Shown: positions 13,984 through 16,184 of the stretch, one piece after another
How the letters are laid out: each line of letters begins with the position of its first letter
Numbering within the stretch: the first letter of the stretch is position 1
Made by a program: the position numbers and the translations under genes
Assembly: GCF_034377145.1 (NCBI RefSeq)
Contig: NZ_CP139707.1
Span: 2,554,501 to 2,618,500 of the forward strand
Origin: Sulfitobacter sp. OXR-159
GTDB lineage: Bacteria > Pseudomonadota > Alphaproteobacteria > Rhodobacterales > Rhodobacteraceae
Direction of reading: 5' to 3'
Length of the DNA stretch: 64,000 bases
The notes under the pieces: model-generated
Told to the model about the DNA's origin: nothing
The model's database searches: none
The model's input: only the letters and a program-made list of their open reading frames with translations

Positions 13984-14775
13984 ATGTCAGGATTGCTTGC
14001 AGGAAAACGCGGCCTCATCATGGGTGTGGCCAACGAACGCTCCATCGCTTGGGGCATCGCCAAGGCGATGGCCGAAGCCGGGGCCGAACTGGCCTTCACC
14101 TATCAGGGCGAAGCCTTTGGCAAACGCCTTGAGCCGCTGGCGCAGAGTGTCGGGTCGGACTTCATGGTCGATGTCGATGTGACCGATGACGCCTCGCTCG
14201 ACCGCGCCTTTGAAGAATTGGGCGCGCGCTGGCCGACGATTGACTTCGTCGTGCATGCCATTGCTTTCTCGGACAAATCCGAGTTGACGGGGCGGTTCCT
14301 GAACACCAGCCGGGCGAACTTCAAGAACTCGATGGACATCTCGGCCTATTCCTTCATCGACGTGGCGCGCCGGGCCCATCCGCTGATGGTGGAGAACGGC
14401 GGCACGCTGTTGACGCTGACCTATATGGGGTCGAACCGGGTGACGCCGAATTACAATGTGATGGGTGTGGCCAAGGCGGCGTTGGAAAGTGCCACGCGCT
14501 ATCTGGCGAATGATCTGGGGCCGGAAGGCATCCGTGTGAACGCGATTTCGCCGGGGCCGATGAAGACGCTGGCGGGGGCTGCCATCGGTGGCGCGCGCAA
14601 GACCTATAAGCACACGGATCAGAACGCGCCGTTGCGGTCCAATGCGACGCTGGAAGCTGTGGGTGGCACGGCGGTCTATCTGGTGTCTGATGCGGGGGCT
14701 TGCACAACGGGCGAGATCATCCGCGTCGATGGCGGGTTCCACGTGTTGGGGATGCCGCAGGCGGATCATCTTTAA
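13984..14775 (+). CDS. fabI: Enoyl-ACP reductase
   Basis: NADH-dependent reduction of trans-2-enoyl-ACP, the last step of each fatty-acid elongation cycle. The 263-residue SDR-type protein opens with KRGLIMGVANERSIAWGIA, the FabI nucleotide-binding signature, and has the TYMGSNRVTPNYNVMGVAKA region carrying the catalytic Tyr and Lys. FabI is the usual target of triclosan-type inhibitors. It lies nine bases after fabB. Directly downstream is the long inverted-repeat element at 14787-14922. Confidence 0.95.
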   Translation: MSGLLAGKRGLIMGVANERSIAWGIAKAMAEAGAELAFTYQGEAFGKRLEPLAQSVGSDFMVDVDVTDDASLDRAFEELGARWPTIDFVVHAIAFSDKSELTGRFLNTSRANFKNSMDISAYSFIDVARRAHPLMVENGGTLLTLTYMGSNRVTPNYNVMGVAKAALESATRYLANDLGPEGIRVNAISPGPMKTLAGAAIGGARKTYKHTDQNAPLRSNATLEAVGGTAVYLVSDAGACTTGEIIRVDGGFHVLGMPQADHL

Positions 14776-14786
14776 ACACGCACTGA

Positions 14787-14922
14787 GGGCCATCGCCTGC
14801 CCGCGGGTCGGCGATGCAACGGCTGGACCTTGCCACTTTATGGTTCAGCCGTGACGTGACTTCGCCAAGTCGCGCCTAGCCTCACCAAATCGCCTACCCG
14901 GGGGGCGGGCAGGCGATGGCCC
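14787..14922. repeat. Long imperfect inverted repeat, possible structured RNA
   Basis: A perfect 18-bp inverted repeat (14787-14804 with 14905-14922; left arm GGGCCATCGCCTGCCCGC) continues inward as an 11-bp helix with one mismatch (14805-14815 with 14889-14899), leaving five unpaired G on the right side. Inside are two further helices: 14819-14829 with 14842-14852 (11 pairs, one G-U) and 14855-14862 with 14867-14874 (8 pairs, one U-G). The whole can fold as a three-way junction. It lies between the convergent fabI and methyltransferase genes. It could be a structured RNA, an extended transcript-end structure or a palindromic mobile remnant. Confidence 0.7.
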
Positions 14923-14960
14923 GGCGCCTGCGGCTTGATTCCGGGCTCAGGTGGTAGGTT

Positions 14961-16076
14961 CTACCGCAGCACATCCGTCTGCCAGAGCCAGATCTTCATC
15001 CCACCATGCGCAATCGCCGGCCCCTGCGGCTTCCACGGCAGCCCTGTCGCCCGCGCCAAGGGCGGCTCTGACGTTACCAACCCCACGCGCCAGCCGCGGA
15101 AACGCGTCTTCAGCGTCTCGCCCAGCGTCCCATAGAGTGGATAAAGCAGCTTCTTATTCCCGATGCGCCCCCCATAAGGCGGGTTCGCGATCACCAGACC
15201 GGGCGGGCCTTCGGGCGGCTGCAACTCCCCTGCCCCGTGGCAGGCGAAATGACACCACGCACCAACACCCGCACGCTCGGCGTTGGCCGTGCTCATCCGG
15301 ATCGCGCCTGCGTCCCGATCCGAGCCGTAGAACCGCGCCGCAGGTTCGGCCACTGCCCCACCGCTAAGCATCTCTTCCCAAGCTCCAGCATCAAAACTCG
15401 CCAAGTCCTCAAAGGCAAAGCTCCGGCTGCGTCCCGGCTTCACCCCCGCCGCGATCTCCGCCGCTTCGATCAGAAACGTCCCTGAGCCGCACATCGGATC
15501 AACCACCGGTTCGCCCGGCACATAGCCGCAAGACCGCAGCATCAGCGCCGCCATATTCTCGCGCATCGGCGCCTTGCCTACGGCCTCTTTATGCCCGCGT
15601 TTGTGCAGCGCCTCGCCAGAGGTATCGAGGCTGAATTGCACCGCGTTGTCATGGATGCGCACCTTGAGCACCAGTGCTGCCTCGGAATCCACCGTGATCC
15701 CATGGCTTTCGCGCAGCGCCGTCTCGACCCGCTGCTGCGCCGCCCCGGCATGGTAAATCTTCGACGCCTTGCACGTCACCTGCACCTTCACCGGCACATC
15801 GGCGCGCAGCACGTCACCAAAGGGAAACTTGCGGCAGCGTTTGTCCAACTGCGCCAGATGGAAGGCCATAAACCCGCCAATCCGCGCCAGCACCCGGCCC
15901 GCGCCGCGCAGCTCTAGGTTCGCGCGCCAGACCTCGGGCCAGCCGCCCTGAACCGTCACGCCGCCGGGCTGCGCCTGCGCTTCGACAAAACCTTTTTCCT
16001 GCGCCTCGGCGCAGAGCAAATCCTCAAGCCCGGGCGGGCAGACAAGGAAAATCTCGAATGTATCTGGGGTATCCAT
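14961..16076 (-). CDS. THUMP-domain class I SAM RNA methyltransferase (RlmL-like)
   Basis: A 371-residue predicted guanine-N2 RNA methyltransferase. The N-terminal ferredoxin-like and THUMP region (about 8-150, FEIFLVCPPGLEDLL) is followed by the UPF0020/N6-N4 methylase domain, with VDPMCGSGTFLIEAAE as SAM motif I and GLVIANPPYGGRIG as the catalytic NPPY motif. Similar proteins modify 23S rRNA (RlmL N-terminal half) or related RNA; the exact site is not deducible. ATG at 16076 gives the canonical start; the longer frame to 16127 has no support. Convergent with fabI. Confidence 0.88.
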   Translation of the reverse strand: MDTPDTFEIFLVCPPGLEDLLCAEAQEKGFVEAQAQPGGVTVQGGWPEVWRANLELRGAGRVLARIGGFMAFHLAQLDKRCRKFPFGDVLRADVPVKVQVTCKASKIYHAGAAQQRVETALRESHGITVDSEAALVLKVRIHDNAVQFSLDTSGEALHKRGHKEAVGKAPMRENMAALMLRSCGYVPGEPVVDPMCGSGTFLIEAAEIAAGVKPGRSRSFAFEDLASFDAGAWEEMLSGGAVAEPAARFYGSDRDAGAIRMSTANAERAGVGAWCHFACHGAGELQPPEGPPGLVIANPPYGGRIGNKKLLYPLYGTLGETLKTRFRGWRVGLVTSEPPLARATGLPWKPQGPAIAHGGMKIWLWQTDVLR

Positions 16077-16184
16077 GGCCCCTGCATAAGCGCCTGCGCG
16101 CTGCGGTGCGAGGGGAAAAAGACGCACATCGCGCCTTGTAGGCCCGCCGGAGAGACATCCCCCCGGCAGGCAGTGTCAGATCGC

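Follow-up and report, generated by a model that had tools for sequence, protein, structure and literature searches.

What is the long inverted repeat that stands between fabI and its convergent neighbour in Sulfitobacter sp. OXR-159, and does it belong to fabI? The window analysed here is the whole stretch of 64,000 nucleotides on contig NZ_CP139707.1 (positions 2,554,501 to 2,618,500), and the coordinates of the locus are those of the window. The upstream neighbour, fabI (13984..14775, + strand), encodes an enoyl-ACP reductase and its stop is 11 bp before the first arm of the repeat; the top NCBIfam matches of the gene were FabI models under cut-off, with Pfam adh_short_C2 over cut-off. The convergent neighbour (14961..16127, - strand) was identified by gene call and domain match as an RlmL/RlmKL-like methyltransferase domain protein. 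An earlier note, made from the sequence alone, had placed a folded element at 14787..14922 between these convergent genes and had offered an undescribed structured RNA, a fabI 3' UTR element or a palindromic non-autonomous mobile remnant as its nature. The position between convergent genes was correct.

The outer helix is formed by a 5' arm (14787..14804) and a 3' arm (14905..14922), which are a perfect 18-bp inverted repeat on the + strand, and it goes on for 11 steps with one mismatch between 14805-14815 (GGGT, mismatch, GGCGAT) and 14889-14899, both as the earlier note had described; the fold and covariation supported this second part, as the inverted repeat and covariation did the arms. 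A 5-nt GGGGG bulge (14900..14904) interrupts the 3' side. The helix encloses a variable segment V1 (14816..14832), which differs among copies and part of which pairs here with 14842-14852 without support from other copies, followed by a conserved core motif CCACTTTATGG (14833..14843), a second variable segment V2 defined by comparison of copies (14844..14884) and a conserved CCAAATCGCC leading into the 3' side of the 11-step continuation (14885..14899, from alignment and covariation). TTTAT is the portion of the core motif that is conserved family-wide: of the two alignments described below, A2 has it in 101 of its 108 copies and A3 in 77 of its 83. After the 3' arm stands a conserved 3' tail (14923..14946) with a small GCC-TGC-GGC hairpin, TTGATT and CCGGGC (14941-14946), the last a repeat of the start of the 5' arm, whose initial GGGCC recurs in the tail of many copies. 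The end of the 3' arm together with 14923-14924 (GGCCCGG, 14918-14924) is a middle strand that can alternatively pair with the tail. All these parts are on the + strand. In blastn and alignment, sequence identity continued beyond the 3' arm as far as about 14950, and the whole copy (14785..14950, + strand) matched covariance model R1 from end to end with 186.5 bits; the element of the earlier note was therefore real as a folded unit and lacked its 3' tail. Two forms of the repeat were found, a short form as behind fabI and a long form in which a piece of 46-49 nt with two small hairpins replaces the GGGGG bulge.

The minimum-energy fold of the + strand held two inner hairpins (14819-14829/14842-14852 and 14855-14862/14867-14874), which the earlier note had joined with the outer helix into a three-way junction. 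It paired 94 of 136 bases, so that the element is mostly paired at a count somewhat under the 100 or so estimated before. Fold z-scores were -6.95 for the + strand and -7.44 for the - strand, with no equally good shuffle among 200 on either strand. Terminator-like and promoter-like sites were absent from 14700-15000 (the fabI copy was the only one scanned), in agreement with the lack of a T-tract noted earlier, and no tRNA was found in 14000-16000. Against Rfam release 15 the window had no match at curated threshold, the best reaching 14.1 bits of the 51.2 required, and three sub-threshold matches, with E values of 2.2-8.1, have the look of chance hits.

Searching the OXR-159 genome by blastn with 14770-14940, a check that had been proposed from the first reading, gave 22 near full-length copies (counted from the list of matches) plus partial ones. 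Apart from that of the window, the full-length copies shared 73-86% identity with the query, and all of them lay on contig C1. R1 was built from 22 OXR-159 copies and a second model, R2, from 83 family-wide copies. With R2 the genome produced 33 matches, which were 31 distinct places and two opposite-strand re-readings; 30 of the places were on C1 and a weak one on C2, and 26 scored at least 70 bits. An extra tandem copy next to 1072080 was found with R1 and is absent from the 31-place list. Within the genus, R1 matched 29 of 58 genomes at E≤0.001, and at E≤1e-6 it matched 100 of 295 Rhodobacteraceae genomes (100 of 294 by genus) with eight candidates scored per genome. With up to 73 candidates scored per genome, R2 matched 21 of 39 family genomes and left 18 without a match. 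The copy-richest genomes were G099 (at least 73 matches, all of its scored candidates), G096 (44), G090 (41), OXR-159 (33) and G085 (28), where counts outside OXR-159 may include opposite-strand double readings. Tandem groups were common among the copies of G099. In a class-wide sample, R2 matched 4 of 289 genomes, every one of the same family. Hosts included Sulfitobacter, Salipiger and, with full copies by model, Pseudosulfitobacter, while Leisingera, Pacificitalea and Roseinatronobacter are candidate hosts from blastn matches alone. A search of 50,697 phage records for a phage origin gave no match. A limited literature search turned up no description of such a repeat, which does not establish its absence from print. 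The palindrome behind fabI is thus one copy of an interspersed, non-coding, folded repeat that occurs in many Rhodobacteraceae genera.

Two alignments were used for the analysis of the fold, A2 with 108 copies on R1, all of the same genus except one from Salipiger, and A3 with 83 copies across the family, including the same Salipiger copy. The long helix of 24 pairs was paired in 97.7% of cells on A2, where 13 pairs showed double-sided changes (49 cells), and in 97.5% of cells on A3, where 20 of 24 pairs showed them (261 cells); none of 500 shuffles was equal in either case. These helix figures are biased in favour of the helix, as the structure guided the making of both alignments and the aligned copies share ancestry, and this kinship makes the shuffle tests overstate independence. 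The effect on A3 is nonetheless large; partners slid out of register paired in 35-47% of cells there. The tail hairpin, made of the middle strand and the tail with the small inner hairpin, had 70 double-change cells on A3 (0 of 500 shuffles equal), and the observed values were reached by 3 of 500 shuffles for pairs and 17 of 500 for pair types. On A2 the tail covariation was weak, with 7 double-change cells (0 of 500 shuffles) and 11 in one slid control. Five identical letters were shared by 5' arm and tail in 40 of 83 copies of A3 (shuffled mean 9.7, maximum 18); on A2, where these letters are near-invariant, the agreement was not significant (36 against a shuffled 31.2, maximum 40). Both alternative helices, arm-middle and middle-tail, were possible in 57 of 83 copies. 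Compensating changes thus maintain the long helix and the 3' tail of the + strand, and the relation of the three strands arm, middle and tail was strong on A3 and weak on A2. The inner helices paired no better than halves permuted among copies (z 0.81 and -0.26, n=101; 0.15 and 0.66, n=81), and the three-way junction was rejected. The covariance search proposed earlier consequently supported the long helix and neither inner helix; what stands of the undescribed structured RNA is a strand-specific, covarying structure of outer helix and 3' tail.

An A-C cell on the + strand is a G-U pair on the - strand. Among the non-Watson-Crick cells of the helix read on the + strand, G-U was in excess over A-C on both alignments (58 vs 17 on A2, 52 vs 12 on A3), which points to the + strand as the folding strand. 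Paired columns of A2 held 50 C>T and 15 G>A changes, and unpaired conserved columns showed no bias (68 C>T in 19 columns, 65 G>A in 14 columns). The Fisher P for the strand bias was 0.0006 on A2, 0.07 on A3 alone and 6e-5 when pooled, values to which the kinship of copies also applies. Most likely, it is the + strand that folds, whether as RNA or as single-stranded DNA.

Placement relative to genes was determined for 146 distinct copies. Almost all came from the genus, and many were orthologous to one another. Exclusion of four copies overlapping a called gene and three without a called neighbour left 139; genes were called with a simple codon model and individual calls may be wrong. There were 68 copies in convergent gaps, 68 in co-directional gaps (34 per sense) and 3 in divergent gaps, compared with 43 convergent and 48 divergent among the 345 gene pairs of a 400-kb background from the OXR-159 genome. 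The median distance from a copy was 30 bp to a gene 3' end and 87 bp to a 5' end. The family-wide set gave 39 convergent, 27 co-directional (14 and 13 per sense) and 6 divergent gaps for the 72 of 83 copies that had both neighbours and no overlap. Copies therefore stand behind the 3' ends of genes, and convergent gaps hold about half of them. The 30 places on C1 of OXR-159 showed no orientation bias by replichore, with 9 + and 8 - in the region of positive GC skew (about 0.1-1.7 Mb) and 7 + and 6 - elsewhere, so that a bias of the kind that single-strand transposons often show was not seen in this genome. Among the copies listed for contig C1 of G099, where the GC skew is irregular, the - strand held 25 and the + strand 6, unlike the even split of OXR-159.

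A fabI query matched 58 genomes and 30 of these loci were read. A copy stood behind fabI in 10 of the 30, eight in the sense of the window (one doubled) and two inverted, and the remaining 20 had no R1 match. As copies adjoin other genes too and in either orientation, the proposal of a fabI 3' UTR element failed, and an element specific to fabI was rejected by the multi-copy spread beside other genes. The fabI copy of G060 (L168) was a mosaic with its left half like those of G003 and G029 and its right half and right flank like those of G000 and G072, a pattern such as recombination would leave between alleles or between tandem copies. In fabI gaps of outgroup Sulfitobacter (L176, L177, L178, L180 and L181), a different GC-rich palindrome of the type CCGGGGC..GCCCCGG followed by CCCCGGGATTT was seen by eye, and the fabI gap may attract repeats from different families.

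Two further sites were read in 10 related genomes. At L008, where the downstream gene reads like a candidate ctaA, five genomes had a copy on the + strand, four on the - strand and one a deletion remnant; at L026, all ten had a copy or a degenerate or trimmed form. Neither site held a copy in five outgroups, as judged by eye. V2 mismatches in 203 same-site pairs were bimodal, with 0-3 mismatches in 31 pairs, 5-7 in 3 and 8-22 in 169, and the pairs of the last group differed as much as unrelated copies. In the different-allele class (V1≥5, 39 pairs), differences amounted to 237/2540 in the arms (9.3%), 278/635 in V1 (43.8%) and 30.1% in V2. The near-identical class (V2≤4, 15 independent pairs) showed 32/978 in the arms (3.3%), 6/248 in V1 (2.4%) and 2.0% in alignable flanks, a pattern that slow purifying selection could also yield. 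When pairs were picked by V1≤2 (21 pairs), the arms differed less (61/1371, 4.4%) than V2 (67/860, 7.8%; P=0.001), an excess in V2 that, as we read it, stems mainly from mosaic or swapped pairs but counts against the interpretation as a propagating repeat given below.

Two plasmids of P. pseudonitzschiae with 97.6-98.3% identical flanks held at one site copies of different subfamilies and of opposite sense, tail included. In addition, a block of about 33 kb was inverted between these two plasmids, NZ_CP054608.1 (L484, 6.9-39.4 kb) and CP071865.2 (L489), which are otherwise about 97-98% identical, and both ends of the inversion were in or adjoining repeat copies. Genomes G206 and G243 contained genome-specific sets of alike copies at different loci, and the likeness continued into flanking repeats (L331 and L367-L370 in G206; L345, L362 and L364 in G243). 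The G206 flanks resembled an outer inverted repeat of the TGGCCTGGAGCGGACGTT type, which suggests that these copies are nested inside another palindromic repeat. Between relatives, copies at a fixed site were thus exchanged, inverted, doubled or trimmed. No clean empty/filled close pair with a target duplication was found in the 400 kb tiles, the window, a set of loci from the genus or at two sites in 15 genomes. Many Sulfitobacter sites are common to several species, so movement there is infrequent.

The repeat is probably a palindromic element of the Rhodobacteraceae that propagates non-autonomously. The mobile remnant, which fits best of the three earlier guesses, would accordingly be replaced by a multi-copy family. 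The main alternative is that each copy yields a structured RNA of benefit to the host, such as a 3' UTR element, an RNA stabiliser or a member of a family of protein-binding sRNAs, with arm, middle and tail acting as an RNA switch. Strong covariation and the G-U preference of the + strand would be expected of it, and copies stand directly behind stop codons, were retained to a high degree (remnants counted) at the three sites read across 10 related genomes and changed less in the arms than in V2 in the V1-chosen pairs. However, the sense of co-directional copies was even (34 vs 34 and 14 vs 13) and flipped at fixed sites, the fabI copy, the only one scanned, had no promoter or terminator pattern, arm constraint was not above that of V1 in near-identical pairs and 18 of 39 family genomes had no match. 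Such an RNA is unlikely to account for the repeat.

A DNA element acting on topology at the level of the chromosome, for example as a site for gyrase or a nucleoid protein or as a roadblock to transcription where genes converge, would fit the enrichment in convergent gaps and the absence of an orientation preference, and DNA-topology roles have likewise been discussed for REP/BIME elements. It is very unlikely, as the asymmetry of G-U and A-C between the strands requires a single strand, the 18 unmatched family genomes count against it as well and outgroup Sulfitobacter had no copy at the sites read. The last alternative is a decayed, immobile repeat whose copies are homogenised by mutual gene conversion. 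The G060 mosaic, the wholesale change of alleles at fixed sites, the sharing of sites and the plasmid rearrangement at copies agree with it, but it is highly improbable given the different subfamilies in opposite orientation, tail included, between the nearly identical plasmid flanks and the groups of alike copies, specific to each genome, that G206 and G243 have at separate loci.

The propagating repeat was then compared with known systems. REP, BIME and REPIN elements are palindromic non-coding units mobilised by RAYT (TnpA-REP, Y1 HUH) transposases, and a conserved tetranucleotide of GTAG/GGAG type at the hairpin foot is a mark of REP/BIME. The repeat shares with them multiple non-coding palindromic copies behind genes, rarity in promoter gaps, tandem groups and one-strand hairpins, and its many intergenic copies behind genes agree with the description of a REP/BIME-like class. 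In contrast to REP/BIME, it is about 165-215 nt long, its helix closes over at least about 75 nt, it has the three-strand design of arm, middle and tail, a single copy in each alignment (108 and 83 copies) had a GTAG-like foot, and there is no link to Y1. Presence of Y1_Tnp (PF01797) did not track the copies: among 39 family genomes it passed its cut-off in three, of which G096 was copy-rich, G088 had one match to the repeat and G110 none. The remaining four of the five copy-richest genomes had no Y1_Tnp match above cut-off. The sole Y1 match of OXR-159 was a sub-cut-off fragment in a 63-aa open frame (C1:2256630-2256713, L196). A RAYT carrier was therefore rejected.

Other alphaproteobacterial palindromes, namely RIME, further rhizobial intergenic mosaic palindromes and Bru-RS, are roughly 100-200 bp long and occur in many copies. 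By description, the repeat resembles RIME and Bru-RS as a multi-copy intergenic palindrome and differs from them in that R2 matches were confined to one family in the 289-genome class sample. MITEs are short, non-autonomous, multi-copy elements with inverted repeats, all of which applies here. Unlike in MITEs, the 18-bp inverted repeat does not bound the unit on both sides, as the tail follows the 3' arm, no target duplication was found (no close empty/filled pair) and the search for a parent transposase, made with Y1_Tnp, gave none. Arm and tail form a short direct repeat, yet one that pairs with an internal strand.

Sites of attC type also stand behind genes. Structured single-stranded DNA sites of this type, including OTH-22-1, resemble the repeat in that structure is kept above sequence and one strand folds (PMC8632094). 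No copy among the 108 of A2 or the 83 of A3 had the RYYYAAC and GTTRRRY boxes at both ends, and attC was rejected. Bridge and omega RNAs carry guide segments; V1 varies among copies, yet it showed no sign of constraint in the same-site comparisons and on that ground was rejected as guide-like. The Rhodobacterales motifs HRC-8-4, uORFC-8-2 and SAM/SAH are likewise structured and intergenic in the same bacterial order, but they are described as occurring mainly in one operon context each (cco, cysS and metK, respectively), whereas the repeat is multi-copy and bound to no single gene (PMC2864571, PMC8632094).

The best reading is a non-autonomous, strand-specific mobile repeat that is REP/BIME-like and yet outside the REP/BIME family. 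In the proposed mechanism, a putative trans-acting machine would recognise the single strand in its folded form, be it DNA or RNA, and exchange of the arm-middle helix for the middle-tail helix would be part of this recognition. New copies would land in intergenic gaps at gene ends, also next to older copies, and recombination would subsequently delete the older of neighbouring copies. The fold would persist since copies that keep it are propagated, rather than by serving the adjoining gene. We tentatively consider, as a possibility somewhat short of probable, that the repeat represents a new class of family-wide mobile nucleic acid in which the folding strand is a three-strand exchange device, with 5' arm and 3' tail alike and both complementary to the middle strand, the carrier is other than Y1/RAYT and copies are still swapping and flipping behind genes between strains.

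To our knowledge, intergenic palindromic repeats are common, and carriers and uses are known for few of them. The present repeat is widespread in a large bacterial family, with strong evidence of strand-specific structure, and its three-strand design predicts which mutations should matter. It also marks points of recombination, as copies stand at the ends of the block of about 33 kb that is inverted between the plasmids. Finally, the population data on P. pseudonitzschiae plasmids are where movement of the repeat might be caught.
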